From: Dermatophagoides farinae
Lineage: Eukaryota > Arthropoda > Arachnida > Sarcoptiformes > Pyroglyphidae
DNA: 64,000 bases
Direction of reading: 5' to 3'
Assembly (NCBI RefSeq): GCF_024713945.1
Contig: NC_134677.1
Span: 3,971,001-4,035,000 of the forward strand
The notes under the pieces were generated by a model. It worked only from the letters and a program-made list of their open reading frames with translations, was not told the DNA's origin and did not search any database. Shown here piece after piece: positions 1 to 29,000 of this stretch (its first letter is position 1; every line of letters begins with the position of its first letter). The translations under genes and the position numbers were made by a program.

Positions 1-212
1 CGGCAGTAGACCATTGCACTTTGAATGGCTAAAAGATGGACAAATATTACGACATTATGGCGATAAGCTAACATCGTATACGATTTCAACTACCGAAGAT
101 GATACACTATTTTCAATTGATAAAATTAGATTGAATGATACAGGCAGCTATACATGCCTTGTTCGTAATAGTTATGGCAGTGATTCAAAAACTATTTCAT
201 TAACGGTCAAAG
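1..212 (+). CDS. sDscam variable Ig1 cassette, partial (5' end outside window)
   Basis: This is the 3' part of an exon encoding the C-terminal two thirds of an Ig domain. The reading frame starts at base 2. It shows the Ig core Trp (HFEWLKDG), the DTGSYTC motif around the second Ig cysteine and a closing LTVK strand. The exon ends at 212 in phase 1 (g|gtatat), the same phase and border as the two cassettes downstream, so it could join the shared acceptor at 2647. By homology with chelicerate sDscam genes it is one of a set of mutually exclusive 5' cassettes supplying the outermost Ig domain of a cell-recognition receptor. Its signal-peptide part lies upstream of the window. Confidence 0.8.
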
Positions 213-455
213 GTATATTCAGTTTTGAATCTGAATTCTTGTGTGTTCTTTTTTTCAAAATCAAATTTGAATGATTCTGTAGTTTGATTTATCGTTGGTC
301 ATGATGTAAAAAATTTTGTTCATATTTTTTCTGCCGCTTTTTTTCATTCGTTTAGCATAATTTTTTGCAACCAGACAGGTAAAAGCTCAAGACGATCTGT
401 CAACTACTAACATCTCATTGGTTTTGTTAAATAGCTTCTCGATTGGTTGCTTTTA

Positions 456-690
456 GATCCAGTCAATCGCAGATGAATGAAACGAAATTCAAACATTGGT
501 GTACAACACAATACGGAAAAAAACCATTATCATTCAAGTGGCGAAAAAATGATAAAGTTCTTTCATCAAGCAATGACCAATAACAACATCTTTATCATAT
601 AGACATTGTTACGTATGAATCTGTTTTGACCATTACTTATTCCTGTCAAGTCTATAGTCATTTTGGTTGGGAAATTCAATTTACAGTGCT
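456..690 (+). pseudogene. Degenerate sDscam Ig1 cassette
   Basis: Read in one frame from 458, this stretch still has an Ig signature: HWC at the first-cysteine position, FKWRKNDKVL at the core Trp strand, and TYSCQVYSHFG at the second-cysteine strand. It is broken in three ways. There is an in-frame stop (taa) at 581-583. About nine codons, including the usual DSG turn, are missing before YSC. The phase-1 donor found in the live cassettes (a-a-g|gt) is absent after FTV. A ttttag acceptor-like site sits at 450-455. It lies between the partial cassette and the next intact one, as expected for a dead copy of a tandem duplication. Confidence 0.75.
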
Positions 691-1171
691 TACTATACAC
701 TATATTAGCTATATTGTTGTGCGAATGTTGATAGTTACATCCGAATAAATCGAATTTCTTCGGGACAAGCTTTAGCTTCTTGTTTATATATGTCTATGTA
801 ACTTTCAATTGCATGCAATTAGCATTAGTGACGACAAATGAGCCTCATTCGAATTGCTCTCTATTCATTTGGAATTGATGATTTGTTAGACTTCCGGAAT
901 GTAATTAGCTATTACATGGATATCGATTGAAATTCAATCAATGAATAGATTCTATGTCAAAGAAGTAGTAGTAGCAATTGTAGCATGATCTATTTGAATT
1001 TCTTATTCATTTCACAAGTATCATCTCTTGTAAAGATTAATAATATCGACCAAAGTGTGGCAGCATTTTTATTCGTATAGAAATGTTGAATTATTTTTTC
1101 TTTGTGGTGTGATTCTATAAGAGATGTTTACTTTATTATTGAATGTTAATGTAATCTGTAACTGTTCCATT

Positions 1172-1523
1172 ATGTATTTGATGATTATTTCAATCATTTT
1201 ATCTTCATTCATATCTTTCATATCATGTACATCAGTACCTTCGCTTGGTCATTTCAAACCTAGTGAATCATTAAATGTTGGCCACAAATTTAAATTATTT
1301 TGCTATCCATTAGCCGGTGTTCCTCAATTCCAATTTGAGTGGTTTAAAAATGGTCATCCACTTTCATCATCGCCGTCGAATAATCATTACATTATCGAAG
1401 AGATCAATGACGCGTCATTGTTTACAATCGAAACACTTCAACAAAATGACTCAGGAAATTATTCCTGTCGGGTACGAAACCGTTTTGGTCATGATATTCA
1501 ATCGACTAGACTTGAAATCAAAG
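1172..1523 (+). CDS. sDscam variable Ig1 cassette with fused signal peptide
   Basis: A single exon reads from ATG 1172 through a hydrophobic signal peptide (about 22 residues, MYLMIISIILSSF...) straight into an Ig domain. First cysteine strand is FKLFCYP, core Trp FEWFKNG, second cysteine strand DSGNYSCRVRNRFG, closing LEIK. It ends at 1523 in phase 1 (g|gtttga), matching the other cassettes and the constant acceptor at 2647. An in-frame ATG at 1124 would add 16 residues before the signal; 1172 gives the cleaner signal peptide. Unlike the proximal cassette there is no intron between signal peptide and Ig. The ca-tcag at the junction could be an unused or relict acceptor. The cassette presumably has its own promoter, which I cannot identify. 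Confidence 0.82.
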
Positions 1524-2102
1524 GTTTGACAACATTTTTTTTGTTTGCTTTATTTTCATTTTTTGTTCGAAATTTTTTTGAATATTTTCATCATCTTATT
1601 GAGAAAGATTTCGATTTTCAAATCTCGACCTACCTCTATGTGTATACATGTTATTCGTTGATCGAATAGCTTTATAAATAGCTTGTAGGACTTTATTGCT
1701 TCATTCATCATGTATCAATATGGCTTTTTTTTTCTTTCAATTTAATATCGGTCACGTTGCTCCGGAAATTACTTTCCACACAAGACTTGCATACTATTAT
1801 GAATGTTCATTCATTCATACATTCTCTGCAATATGAGTGTGTGTCTGTGTTTGGTTGTCAAAAAAATAGGTAAATTGCTTTTGCGTTTGATTTTCTTACA
1901 CTAAGATGGATGGATAGATGTGTGTAGATAGATAAATAGATTGATCTACGTTTGGTTATTTGTTTGTTTATTATGGTTCATATCCAAAACGCGGCGTCTA
2001 GATCGCCGTTTCAATTTTTTTTTTCTTTGCTTTCTTTTATTTTCTGGCTCTTAGATTTAGATTATTCACATTTCTTTCAGTACTCGAGTTTCTCGCATGT
2101 TT

Positions 2103-5100
2103 ATGGCAAGAATAATGATTCTATTCGATATTATTTGGTTATTTTCCATATGTTTATCTCTTACTTTGGCTCAAGGTATCCAAATAGTTCTATTTATAAC
2201 CTAATGCATATTTAATTGACTAATGCTAATTGAATTCTTAGCACCACAATTATTGCCATCATTTCGTGATCAAATCAATCAGAATGTTGGCAATAAATTC
2301 CGTCTTGTTTGTTCCATACAAAAAGGCATAGAACCCTTAGAATTTGAATGGTTTCGTAATGGTATCCGATTAATTACACAAACATCCAATGTTCACCTCG
2401 AATTTGGTGATGATTTTTCCAATTTAATCATAACTAAACTGTCAGAATTGGACAGTGGTAATTATACATGTCGTGTACAAAACGATTTTGGTTCAGATCA
2501 ATGGTCTGTCAAACTAAATGTTCAAGGTGTGATGATTCTTTTACTACAAGCGCCAAATTTTTTTTTTCAATTTGACTATGACAATAATCACTAATGTTCT
2601 ATGATTACTAATGAATGAGTTTGAATTTTTTTTTTGCTTCAAATAGTACCACCAACATGGATAGTCGAACCGAAAGACACACACACCAATGGTAAGGAAA
2701 ATGTTCGAATGGAATGTAAAGCCGATGGATCACCCAAACCGACTATCAAATGGATCACATCAAAAGGTTTGCAGATTTATGATTAATGACTAATCTATTT
2801 AATCTATTTGTCGATCATTCAAATGTCAATTATTGAATACTACTAAAAGGAATCACAATCGAGTCTGAATATCTGGATGTCAATAAATATCGAACTGCCA
2901 ATGTTGATACGTATGAATGTGTAGCTGATAACGGTGTTGGCGAACCATTACGAAAATCGATCAAAGTTTCTTTCATGGGCAAGTATTTCAAAATCATCAA
3001 TGTCTAAAGATAAACATGAAATGTACTTATTTTTCTTTTCTACTCATCGCTTAGTGCCCGTCAAATTTCACGAAAAGTTTGCTTCTTTAAAAGTAAAACG
3101 AAGCGAAAGTGTACGGCTAGAATGCAATGCTACTGGTGATCAACCGCTTACGGTACAATGGACCAAAAATAATGTCAAACTTGATAAGCTTGGATCCAAG
3201 TATGTCACTTTTTTTCTTTCACGATTTTTTTTTTCATTGAAAAACATTATTCATTCAGCTATGAAATCATCGATACGAACACTGATGATGGAATTCGATC
3301 CGAATTGTTCATTCAGACTAGCCAGACTATGACAGATGATGCACACACTTCCATTTATAAATGTTTTGTCGAAAATGAACATGGTAAAGATGAACGAACT
3401 ATTCGATTGGAAGTTGTGGAAGTGCCTGGTATGCCAAAAAATGTTCATGTCAAAGAGGTTTGGTCTCGGACAGTAAGCTTATCATGGTCAGAACCATTCA
3501 ATGGTAATCTCCCAATACAAAAATATACGGTTCAATATTGGCGTTATCAAAGTGCACCACATCGTCTTAACGAAGTTTTTGTTCCCGGATCACAAACATC
3601 CTTCTTCCTCAAAGATCTAAGCCCTGGTCAATCGTATGAATTGAGTGTAATCGGTAAAAAATAACATGGTAATTTTTCATCCATTTACGTTTTGTTTCCA
3701 TATTTTTTGGTAGCTGAAAATGAAATCGGTAAAGGTGCGTCATCAGCACCGGTCACATTTACAACCGGTGAGGAAGAACCTTCTGCTCCACCGAATGACA
3801 TTTCACTTGAATCGATGGGACCCTCAACGGTCAGATTGGTCTGGCGATCACCACCAATCGAAAATTGGAACGGAGAAATCACAGGCTATTATGTTGGATA
3901 TCGTAAAGCTCGGGACAATAATTCACCCTATGTTTATATAACTGTACCTACATCTGCAGCCAGTCGTGATTCAAATCAAGCACAAAAAACACGACCAAAA
4001 GAGATAACATTTCATGAATATTTTCTACGGCAATTAAACAAAGGAACTGAATATAGTGTCGTAGTCAAGGCTTATAATTCGGCTGGAAGTGGTCCACAAT
4101 CACATCCGATGGTTGCACATACATTCGATGGTGATTTACCACCTGCATTCCAATTGAATGTTATCGACAATACGGAGGAGACAATTTCGTTACAATGGTA
4201 CCAAAAATTACCTCACTCTAATTATCCACAATCAGCTATTTCCGGATATACTATTCATTATCGGAAAGAAAATGAAGCCAAATGGAAAGAAGTACCCATC
4301 AGTAATAATAATGCAAATCAGCCAACGGTCGATCCAAATTCATCATTCAATTCATATTCATTTGTATTGGAGAATCTGGAACACAATGCAAAGTATATGA
4401 TCTATCTGGTGGCTATTAATCGTTTCGGTGTTGGTGACCCAAGCAATGTGATCACAGCACGTACACATAATGGTAAATATACTTTTTTGGATCATATGAA
4501 CTTTCTTCCAAATTAGCTACAAAAGTGCTAACTTTTTCATACAAAATTATGTTTGTTAAGGAAATTCTTCACATGTTTAATTTTGAGGGGGAAAAGTTCA
4601 ACTTTTACTGCTAATTGGAGAGAAAGTTCACATGATCCCTTTTGAATTCGTCATTTTTTCTCAATTTTTTCCCAACTAAAGGAATGGCCGTAGTATCGCA
4701 TGAAGTCATACGACGTTTTCATGGCGCTAATTATTATTTAGAACCATTGTTTTTATGGCCATTACTTTTTGCATTGGTAATCATTATAATCGTTATGATC
4801 GTTGCATATGTATGCATTCGTAAGACAAGAAATGAAAGCGATAATCCCTGTAAGTGTATATAAAATATATGTTTAAATGATTTCCGGGATTTATCTTTCA
4901 AGAATCCAATCGAAATCCTTGACATTGCGCAAATATGATGTGTGTGTCAATGAATAGTCAAATAGTGTGTATGTGTTTATCACGGATTTTTTCTTTCGTT
5001 CTTGTTTATTTTTTTTCGTTTAGTCAACTTGGATGCAGCTACTCTGAATAAACGTCTGTCAGCTGCATACAACGTAGGAACCACCCCTCGTTATGCTGAT

Positions 5101-5739
5101 TTCGAAAAGACGGCCAATAAAACATTGTTGATGAGCATCGACGGACAACCACCAACTTCGGCTACTGCTGGCTATCCAACACCATATGCAGCTTCGGTTA
5201 GTTTGTGGAACATTTTGAGTTTGCGTAAATAAGAGTCCAATAGTCAATTCAGTTCAATCGAAAGATCATTATCTAGCTACCAGGACCATTTTACTCGATT
5301 TAGGCTTTAGGCTTAGTGAGTGTTGACCAAATATTAAATGGTCCAGGCATTTATCTACAGTTCTCTTATTTGAAAAGCAAAAAAAAAATGATTTATGAAC
5401 ACACTAACATTCAAGATACAATTAAGTAACCGGAAAAAGATAAAATATAATATTCTAAAACTAAAAATATAGAGCAAATTAGATTCATGTTTCAGAGTTT
5501 ATTTCGTTGATTGATTGACGTCCCGGTCAACAGTCTAAATTAGAATATAATATAATAATCCAATTGATCGATCGATTGATGGAGATTTTCCATCAAATCC
5601 AAATACAAACATTAAATCAAAATCTCATTCGATTCTTTTATTTTTTTTTTCTCATAAATTTCAGACACCATGGGAACGACCATTGCCAAATCCACAGACA
5701 ATGAAAAAAGATGGCCACATCTATGATCATCCTCAATAG
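2103..5739 (+). CDS. sDscam: Short Dscam (sDscam-alpha type) receptor: proximal Ig1 cassette plus constant exons
   Basis: Model: 2103-2175, 2242-2526 (variable cassette), then constant exons 2647-2766, 2850-2978, 3055-3199, 3259-3653, 3714-4472, 4682-4849, 5024-5196, 5665-5739; 773 aa. The protein has a signal peptide (1-24), variable Ig1 (about 25-119), Ig2 (120-202), Ig3 (203-304), three fibronectin III domains (about 305-635), a transmembrane helix (about 656-680, PLFLWPLLFALVIIIIV) and a 93-residue tail ending in HIYDHPQ. Three Ig plus three FNIII with a single variable Ig is the published chelicerate sDscam-alpha layout; such proteins mediate isoform-specific homophilic recognition. Cassette and Ig2 exons all join in phase 1. 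The intron after 2978 starts with GC (gcaagt). An arthropod initiator-like TCAGT lies at 2077-2081, just before ATG 2103. A canonical long Dscam is excluded because there are only three FNIII and no further Ig domains. Confidence 0.88.
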
Positions 5740-26028: not shown

Positions 26029-29000
26029 ATGTCTTCGATAGAAATGTGCCATCAATCTGGTTCGACGGCTTCGCCCGTTGATAGTTCAAATCCCAATCGT
26101 CATCATCATCAACATCATAATCATTCCTCATTCGACCTCGAAGGTATGTATAGATGTCTTTGTTTTTTCTTTTTTTTTTTGATTTATTTGATTCGAATTT
26201 CTTAAATAATGTTTTTTTCTTGTTCTCCATATCTTCACATATGTCAATTGCTATGATATGTCTGTAGGTCTTGAAGAGTCTCTCGTTGATAACAACGAAG
26301 ATGATGATGATGATGATGATGATAATTTTTTATTGATGGACACGATGATCATTAGTAATCATCATCGTGGAATGAATGATTCCTCAATGATTCAACCAAT
26401 GACAACGACGGCAACCAACGGACCTATGACCGGAACATATTCACCGGGAATAATATTCGATCATAATCTATACCTTATACGTGAAGCATTGATACGTGAT
26501 TCGAATAGCCGTACTGAAGATGATATTGAGATTATTGTCCGTTTTTTATCCATAATCAATTCAAATCATGATCATATGACCCGTAGGCGATTGGCACCAC
26601 ATTTTGTTCTAGCCGAAATCGAAGCTCGTGATACTCGTGTATTAACACATGGTGAAAAATTGGATGCCTACTGTATAGTTGCTGCTGGATCATTACGACA
26701 TGTACTTCCATGTGAAGATGATGGCCTAATAATGCAACAACAAGACCTACAGGAAACCTCAGTAGATGATGACAATTATATGATGTCTATGCCTACGGCG
26801 TCATCTACATCGACCACAGATACGACAAACAGTTATTTACCTCATCATCAACAGCCAAATAATAATCCACAAGTTGAATCCTCATCAAATGTAGCACAAA
26901 TAACGACGAATGGATCATCGACTTCGAATCCTAATCTCCATCATCATCATCATCATCACCACCACCAGCACCATCATCATCATCATCAAAATACTCGTTA
27001 CCTACATGTTGGTGATGAATTTGGTGCACATCTCGATGATCGTGTTGTCTACGGAGAGATATTCACAAATGAAGATTTTGTCTGGGTTTTATGCGTACCT
27101 CATGTTATCTTTGATCAGGTATGGAAAATAATTTCTCATTTATAATCATCTAATTTTTTTATCTCGAAAATGTCATTTAACCTTTTTGTTTTCTTAAGAT
27201 ATGTGGCGAAAAGACATTCAAAACGATACGCGATGAAGTTACAGGTAATATAATTGAAATGCGTGCCAATTGTCTGTTGCCACCACCACCATCTCTATCG
27301 TCTGGTGTTGCTACTAGTAATAATCAACAACAGCCAAAATTAGCCGATGATATTAATTCACTTGGATCGACAAATTTGACGGCCAGCGATTTAAGTTTAT
27401 CACAACAAAGTGATGCCAATAAGTCGTCACATTTTGAATTATTAAATACGGAAGATTTCATCACGGATATAAATGTCTCAGGTTCGGCTACGGCGGTAGT
27501 GAAAAGCTCAGCTCATTGTTCAAACAATACGGTCACACCGCCAGATCAGCCGCAGCCTAAAACACCACCAACATCATCAAAAAGTCTTTTAAAACAACAA
27601 CAATTATCGAAAACAACGGTCATTGGCGACACTACAAACGAATTAATTCGTGCAACTAAAGAACGTCTTTACGAACTATTACTCATGTCCGACCCTAATG
27701 AAATTTTTATTGAAGATTTTCTACTCACATTTCGAATATGGTCCGAAAAGGATCTGCATCCATCCAAAGATTTGAAAATTATGGCCGATCTAATGCGCCG
27801 GATTTGTGAATGTATTATTTCAAATAATCAACTTGTAGAAAATTGTGTTAGAATAGTATTGATATGGTTGGTCAATCATTACCAGGATTTTCAAAATGAA
27901 AATCGATATTTATTGGATGAGTTTGAAAATGCTTTGAAAGAAAATTCTGTACATAAATCTCAATTACGACTTTTCTACATGCATTTATCGGCCAAATCAT
28001 TTGAACGACAAGTGACCGTTACTCGTAGTGATCGTAATGCACCGTTAATTTTCTCATTGATTGGTGGCTATGAATGTTCTGCCAGACTTTTTATCGGTGA
28101 AATATTGCTCAATAACAATAATAGTGCGAGTCCCATTCAATCTCCATCATCATCTGCAACAACCACACTATCCAATATCGACCTTAGGCCGGGTGACCGT
28201 GTCATATCGATCAATGGTGTTGATTGTCATGTGATGCCCATCGCAAGAGCATATGAACTTTGTCGTTCATCTACTCATTTATCATTGCAAGTTAAATATG
28301 ATCCTCATTTGTTCTATGCATTGATCGAAGGTAAATTTTGTATTTGCATTTTTTCCTCATTTTATGTGGTGAATGTTAAAAAATTTTGTTGCATAAATTG
28401 TTGATATCCATTATATCATTTCTATTCATATTTCCCAATAGGACGTCATGAAACGAAAAGACAAATTGTCGAAACGTTTCCGTTAACAAATCGATTGTCA
28501 ACATCAACAACGACATCATCATCATCATCGTCATCCACATCCTCAGGATTCGGTAGTTCATCATCAACATCATTGTCCAGCATAAATTCAAGTCAAAACC
28601 CGTTGTTGACAACAACAAAAGATGGTAAAAAAGAAAAAGAAGGCTGGAAACTGAAAGTTCGTTCACTTGTATCATCAACGACAAATCAGTTGATATCATC
28701 TACAACAAACATGTTGCATAATAATTCATCTACATCCATATCGAATAACAATAACAATATGAATCAATCAAACCATAATCAATCATCAACAAGTTTATCA
28801 TTGAATTCTAATACGGGGACTGGTAATGGCAATGGTTCTTCTTCGGCAACTCATCCTCGAATATTGTCTTATGAAATACCGGAAATAATTAAAATTTATT
28901 CATTTGAACATAATGATTGCTGTTTTCTACCGATACATTCGTCTACAACTGTTCGTGAATGTATACAATTAGCATTGCGGCAATTTAAATATTCAAACAA

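Follow-up and report, generated by a model that had tools for sequence, protein, structure and literature searches.

In chelicerates, sDscam-alpha genes encode membrane receptors with three immunoglobulin (Ig) domains, three fibronectin type III (FNIII) domains and a transmembrane (TM) segment, and tandem 5' cassettes, each supplying a leader and the first Ig domain (Ig1), precede one constant region (available text of PMC4835542 and PMC5775551). According to the accessible parts of PMC4835542, which include the mite Tetranychus urticae, an alpha cassette encodes one Ig domain and generally consists of two exons. Here we describe a further gene of this known kind in Dermatophagoides farinae, a house dust mite and therefore itself a chelicerate. 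Among the proteins encoded on C1 is one that, compared by eye over part of its length, departs from the Der f 2 sequence at a single place. The gene, called W, lies in a stretch of 64,000 nucleotides (C1:3971001-4035000, referred to as the window; negative coordinates lie to the left of window position 1). It belongs to a mite order for which we found no sDscam report, the literature in subscription journals being poorly covered; the one paper retrieved for Dscam with Dermatophagoides deals with trombidid mites, and words beginning Dermatophagoides or Sarcoptes do not occur in the main texts of PMC4835542 and PMC5775551 (word search). The kind of gene is already known; what it adds is a sequence box upstream of its cassettes and the transfer of a block of cassettes from a second sDscam locus. 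We consider it very probable that W is an sDscam-alpha gene in which one of about 14 promoter cassettes is used at a time, with the box as selector and with an imported block of cassettes under purifying selection.

A preliminary description of the window had placed the ends of three Ig1 exons at 212, 1523 and 2526, ahead of a single constant acceptor at 2647, and had classed the locus as sDscam-type. These claims held: each exon end is followed by GT, lies in phase 1 at the homologous place and closes an exon with Ig homology; the acceptor is real and opens a constant gene running from 2647 to 5739; and the locus fits sDscam-alpha in the order of its domains, the layout and phase of its cassettes and its sequence relationships. 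When joined to the eight constant exons, the last cassette (c15) gives a single frame of 773 amino acids from ATG to stop, in which Pfam finds three I-set and three fn3 stretches, with the Pfam DSCAM FN3 model above its cut-off. The c15 isoform therefore has the sDscam-alpha layout of three Ig domains, three FNIII domains and a TM segment, without Ig1-6 and Ig10 of Dscam. Insect Dscam1 is homologous: Ig1-2 of the c15 isoform align to Drosophila Dscam 3dmk (E 1.3e-37), in a part that we take to be Ig7-8 by domain numbering. Unlike insect Dscam1, the mite gene has neither Ig1-6 nor internal clusters of mutually exclusive exons, and its variable units lie at the 5' end with leaders of their own.

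Comparison with PDB sequences points the same way. Among the best 60 of 92 sequences matching at E <= 1e-10, FNIII1-3 match 7y8s ('Dscam') best (E 4.2e-68), with contactin-2 second (E 2.8e-52), and Ig1-3 match 7y6o ('Down Syndrome Cell Adhesion Molecules'; E 1.6e-32). Contactins, titin and others also score, via their Ig and FNIII repeats; on PDB match scores and Pfam, the ectodomain is closer to sDscam/Dscam than to other Ig-FNIII families. Both PDB codes presumably belong to PMC10154414, the available part of which describes crystal structures of sDscam Ig1-3 and FNIII1-3 fragments. One intron of the constant region (window 2979-3054) is of the GC-AG type.

That the array continues beyond the left edge of the window, as the preliminary description supposed, was borne out when four 10-kb stretches to the left were joined to the window, giving 103,200 bases without N. 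A hidden Markov model (HMM) built from 14 cassettes found 15 full tandem one-Ig cassettes (c1 to c15) and three relics, and the array reaches 8.2 kb further left. With only phase-1 donor and acceptor sites sought, a donor stands at the homologous place in all 15 cassettes. Fourteen look usable, each having its own ATG and a leader that was assigned on its hydrophobic character and its fit to a donor rather than by a signal-peptide predictor. The remaining one, c2, has neither acceptor nor leader and looks broken. The preliminary description had given an ATG and signal peptide to two of its three cassettes; this was correct for those two, and the cassette ending at 212 has one as well, to the left of the window, hence all three do. 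Published sDscam-alpha cassettes generally have two exons, as far as the accessible text goes, and so do 10 of the 14 usable mite cassettes, in which the signal peptide has its own exon (c1, c3, c4, c6, c8-c11, c13 and c15); in the other four (c5, c7, c12 and c14) it is fused to the Ig exon.

Each cassette is about 40-60% identical to the one closest to it within W (c12 left out of the scoring), and I-set matches are clear, e.g., E 8.5e-15 for the cassette ending at 212 and E 1.8e-14 for the one ending at 1523. Over 21 cassettes, with strands assigned by eye, Ig1 entropy is 2.48 for strand A, 2.22 for B and 2.26 for D/E, compared with 1.46 for C, 1.28 for F and 1.91 for G. The available part of PMC10154414 describes a variable ABED face and a conserved CFG face in sDscam Ig1, and mite Ig1 appears to follow this pattern, its A, B and D/E strands being variable and its C and F strands more conserved, as in other chelicerate sDscam-alpha. 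In the scorpion isoforms covered by the same part of that paper, every Ig1 without exception has an F-strand sequon; by eye, an F-strand NXS/T sequon occurs in 7 of 15 W cassettes, and the feature does not define the family. The relic inside the window, absent from the preliminary list, is broken by a stop: a separate cassette query aligns over 434-697 with one stop.

Transcription would most likely start before one of the roughly 14 usable cassettes, each of which would have a promoter of its own besides its ATG and signal peptide. The phase-1 donor of that cassette would then join the single acceptor at 2647, and the product would be a membrane receptor carrying one variable Ig1 on a constant Ig2-Ig3-FNIII1-3-TM stem. 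It presumably serves isoform-specific homophilic recognition, a role that the Ig1 variability pattern fits. As selector we propose a box located some 120 bp upstream of the ATG, to which CTCF or a factor with similar specificity might bind.

This box, a motif of approximately ACCAAAAnnTGGCGCTAA, is common to the upstream sequences of the cassettes and lies in gene orientation, its core starting 98-156 bp before the ATG (mean 121, standard deviation 16; 14 cassettes, c6 included). For c11, a signal exon at -1734..-1671 was dropped on account of its weak donor and -1628..-1562 taken instead, which changed the distance from box to ATG from 19 to 125. Core columns carry 1.48 bits on average, a figure inflated by the initial choice of sites by eye, versus 0.25 in the 40-bp flanks, and common ancestry of the spacers therefore does not account for the box. 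The fair test is leave-one-out, in which a model made from the 13 other sites scans the 200 bp before each ATG against window 6001-64000 as background. The box was the best + strand site in 13 of the 14 usable cassettes, with no - strand site higher and a chance expectation of at most 0.005 for each of the 13. Those that pass include c13-c15 (scores 11.3-13.3), which are native to the locus in that they lie outside the imported block described below.

The box is also rare elsewhere. In the 11.1-kb array GGCGC[CT] occurs 11 times on the + strand and 4 times on the - strand (GGCGCC being its own reverse complement); it occurs once on the + and twice on the - strand in window 6001-64000, and not at all in the 30 kb left of the array. 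Throughout the assembly (62,435,336 bases, 22 contigs; the scope of all genome-wide counts here), the strict form CCAAWANNTGGCGCTA has 12 matches and its reversed control none. Three sDscam arrays hold nine of the matches, including one ahead of the broken c2, and cassettes carried by transposons hold two more. The sole match outside sDscam is at C7:998559-998574, about 200 bp after an open frame of 284 amino acids with a hydrophobic tail. For sDscam cassettes, the available text of PMC4835542 reports predicted promoter elements and reporter activity. Its main text mentions no shared motif (the word 'motif' is absent from it by word search), unlike mite W with its oriented box at 13 of 14 cassettes.

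Because the box precedes 13 of 14 usable ATGs and four cassettes have fused leaders, separate promoters are favoured over splicing from a common leader. A scheme like that of insect Dscam1, in which transcripts from a single distal promoter are cis-spliced to one internal cassette at the exclusion of the others, would be workable in principle, since all donors are in phase 1 and a plausible acceptor of that phase precedes ten of the Ig exons. However, all cassettes but one of the 15 come with an ATG and leader, no in-phase AG precedes the first Cys of the single-exon c7, the only AGs in c5, c12 and c14 are judged weak (1236 in c14 being the most plausible), and 13 of the 14 usable ATGs have a box ahead of them whose distance hardly varies. 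We therefore regard it as very improbable. Serial joining of cassettes, which would give receptors with several Ig1-type domains, is compatible with the phases, as a phase-1 donor fits the phase-1 acceptor of a later two-exon cassette, and isoforms combining exons from different cassettes are reported in the available text of PMC4835542. The same leaders, ATGs and boxes speak against it, however, and every join to a two-exon cassette would require that its leader exon be passed over, which leaves serial joining with hardly any probability. A later paper is said to deal with trans-splicing in sDscam.

The second and third sDscam loci, A and B, also lie on C1. Locus A, at about 8127178-8136124 (+), has 16 Ig frames, one of which a frameshift has split, and locus B, at about 8209243-8215620 (-), has 12; the two are mutually inverted, and their long aligned parts are 92-96% identical. 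Their arrays extend over C1:8127088-8136184 and C1:8209183-8215776, about 70 kb apart, and differ in cassette content. The constant region of W is an old paralogue of that of A: the two share 52% amino-acid identity over 415 codons, with synonymous divergence (dS) saturated at 2.2. The cassettes have a different history. At the amino-acid level, c1-c5 and c7-c11 are 83-93% identical to cassettes of A or B, and c12 matches A15 and B11 with a nonsynonymous divergence (dN) of 0.06-0.07; the A counterpart of c6 is frameshifted, and c13-c15 reach only 40-48% against A/B cassettes. W is collinear with A over -8459..-1803 (83.1%) and -1406..-626 (78.7%), and the part between, which holds c11, is missing from A and present in B, to which -3441..-626 aligns at 83.1%.

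Cassettes c1-c12 thus came to W together, in a single block taken from another sDscam locus, an origin in another locus that sets 12 W cassettes apart from published sDscam-alpha. At the left end of the block, a 245-bp piece 84% identical to the constant FNIII exon of A (8137373-8137616) abuts array sequence. We read this head-to-tail junction as the probable trace of a copy from an A/B-type locus, made by tandem duplication or via a circle.

The imported cassettes are under purifying selection. Ten of them pooled (946 codons; c1, c3, c4, c5, c7-c10 and c12 versus A, c11 versus B; c2 omitted as broken and c6 as lacking an intact partner) give dS 0.332, dN 0.066 and a dN/dS ratio (omega) of 0.20, which stays well under neutral even when all amino-acid changes are put on the W branch. 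Indels per kb number 0.7-2.2 in Ig exons, 8.6-12.8 in signal-peptide exons and 13.8-54.9 in noncoding classes, except for one 50-base class with none. Regional conservation gives no clear sign of promoters upstream of the ATG: identity is 0.79-0.88 in bins there, 0.79-0.80 in the introns between signal-peptide and Ig exons and 0.83-0.90 in Ig exons (this comparison and that of indels used the later-dropped c11 signal exon). When the 18-bp boxes of W and A are compared in 11 W-A pairs, one of them (the last) probably wrongly matched, 180 of 198 positions are identical.

Given an omega of 0.20 and few exon indels, the imported cassettes are therefore probably used, with later conversion between loci as the caveat. 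Conversion is the basis of another explanation, in which only c13-c15 serve the gene and c1-c12 are never joined to it, being conserved by later gene conversion from A and B. The broken c2 and its neighbouring relic fit this, as does the spread of dS between single cassettes from 0.16 to 0.50, which conversion would give. Set against it are the low omega over ten cassettes at dS 0.33, the scarcity of exon indels, and donors and leaders that are intact in 11 of the 12 imported cassettes; we consider it unlikely, though less so than the two splicing schemes above.

The full box model also finds sites, assigned by position, near 15 of 16 Ig frames of A (score 12.2 or more) and 10 of 12 of B (score 14 or more). 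The model was trained on W sites largely homologous to these, so they lend no independent support, save for A16 (17.3), which has no W counterpart. Several observations weigh against the box as a general selector: the c6 site, picked by eye and among the model's 14, scores under 8 and fails leave-one-out; B1, B2 and the frameshifted A10 have no strong box; and sites scoring over 14 lie near A and B but outside the arrays, at 8124330, 8218405 and 8220118. In a genome-wide search, one cassette query gave at least 65 matches; 11 of them belong neither to the three loci nor to the three transposon copies, and these are dispersed. The sensitivity of that single query revealed no sDscam-beta array, the upstream regions of most other Dscam-like genes being unread.

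For the factor that reads the box, clustered protocadherins offer a model. In the available part of PMC7811963, nearly all clustered protocadherin promoters carry a conserved sequence element (CSE) with a CGCT box, similarly far from the start codon in each and with a single orientation, which was later shown to be bound by CTCF. As in the mite array, tandem first units, each with an oriented element at a near-fixed distance, are joined to constant exons; the protein families, however, are unrelated, and CTCF binding is something we only infer for the mite. The mite box has the layout of the CSE (98-156 bp before the ATG, one orientation, 13 of 14 by leave-one-out), and literal CGCT occurs in 9 of its 14 sites.

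When the 14 upstream regions are scored against a vertebrate CTCF consensus (the c11 ATG being guessed at -1643 for this scoring), the best matches agree at a mean of 10.9 of its 15 positions, compared with 9.6 in background and 9.5 on the - strand, and none of 20,000 random means reached 10.9. D. farinae has a CTCF orthologue: of two human zinc-finger (ZF) queries, the ZF1-6 query found a C6 exon 71% identical to human ZF2-5, the next best being 39%, and the ZF7-11 query gave matches of at most 34%. Against PDB, this exon matches CTCF (7w1m) in one stretch (1.8e-64), and the first-ranked ZNF568 in three. The canonical CTCF-like form CCANTAGNTGGCGC occurs nine times genome-wide, two of these being cassette boxes, versus one control match.

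Two points tell against CTCF: the consensus match is moderate, and in no more than 9 of 14 cassettes does it fall in register with the box. Of strong reverse-oriented (- strand) sites that could serve as enhancer partners, as in the protocadherin system, the 103-kb region has one, at 26608 (score 15.5; threshold 14). A promoter element for a non-CTCF factor, private to sDscam cassettes, would explain why 11 of 12 strict matches fall in such cassettes, transposon-borne copies included, and why the left half of the box, CCAAAA, departs from the vertebrate CTCF consensus. It would not explain the CCA and GGCGCY parts shared with that consensus, the likeness in layout to the CTCF-bound CSE in a genome with a CTCF orthologue, or the over-representation of canonical CTCF-like sites (two of the nine being cassette boxes). 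We give this private factor an even chance, and put the probability that CTCF or a close equivalent reads the box at a little under one half. No paper linking sDscam or chelicerate alternative promoters with CTCF was found by title or abstract start; one that contains both sDscam and CTCF names the latter solely among its references.

Part of the array has also travelled further. The segment at window -8744..-6294 (an FNIII piece, c1, c2 and the start of c3) recurs at three other sites (Table 1), each copy flanked by inverted copies of a repeat-rich arm that is also present in W at -14772..-12813. The right junction, inside the c3 exon, is identical in all three copies, which therefore derive from one capture followed by spread. 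A DNA transposon with long inverted repeats carries this captured sDscam fragment. The arms of the C3 copy begin ATAAGACTTG, not CACTA. Arm and segment are separated in W by a nested 4.07-kb transposon (window -12812..-8745), which has 0.7-kb inverted ends and a DDE_Tnp_4 transposase frame of 720 amino acids. Further upstream of the array, an open frame of 926 amino acids (window -18956..-16178) matches Transposase_21 (E 1.2e-8).

Table 1. Features of the W locus, in window coordinates unless a contig is named, and transposon-borne copies of its array segment
Feature	Position	Strand	Remark
First Cys codons, c1-c5	-8046, -7524, -6308, -5731, -5152
First Cys codons, c6-c10	-4539, -3950, -3148, -2566, -2016
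First Cys codons, c11-c15	-1436, -937, -16, 1301, 2310
Relics	about -6920..-6681, -647..-543 and 431-745		cassette HMM
Degenerate cassette relic	431..745	+	431-580 E 4.2e-8; 584-745 only E 0.097
Cassette 13, box	-427..-410	+	outside window
Cassette 13, signal-peptide exon	-261..-174	+	just left of window
Cassette 13, Ig1 exon, right part	1..212	+	acceptor at -81
Cassette 14, box	1049..1066	+	leave-one-out score 13.1
Cassette 14, one exon encoding both signal peptide and Ig1	1172..1523	+
Cassette 15, box	1983..2000	+	leave-one-out score 13.3
Cassette 15, signal-peptide exon	2103..2175	+
Cassette 15, Ig1 exon	2242..2526	+
Constant exon 1 (Ig2, first part)	2647..2766	+	acceptor at 2647
Constant exon 2 (Ig2, second part)	2850..2978	+	GC-AG intron after it
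Constant exon 3 (Ig3, first part)	3055..3199	+
Constant exon 4 (remaining Ig3 and most of FNIII1)	3259..3653	+
Constant exon 5 (FNIII1 end, FNIII2, FNIII3)	3714..4472	+
Constant exon 6 (TM segment)	4682..4849	+	hydrophobic run
Constant exon 7 (cytoplasmic)	5024..5196	+
Constant exon 8 (cytoplasmic end)	5665..5739	+	stop 5737-5739
Transposon copy	C2:5249437-5251926		97.0% identical to window segment
Transposon copy	C4:3731651-3733864		two pieces, 99.0 and 94.5%
Transposon copy	C3:3931024-3933476		99.3% identical

A box at a precise position offers a direct test of how sDscam genes select a cassette, a question that the literature we found leaves open. The block transfer suggests that cassettes and their boxes act as portable modules. 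We tentatively propose, at somewhat less than even probability, that chelicerate sDscam arrays and vertebrate clustered protocadherins, though unrelated as proteins, converged on tandem alternative first units and also on one kind of selector, an oriented CTCF-type site at a near-constant distance ahead of each unit's start, and that in this mite a block of cassettes moved together with its boxes and keeps working. If CTCF does read the box, two neuronal identity systems of independent origin would share a single chromatin mechanism.

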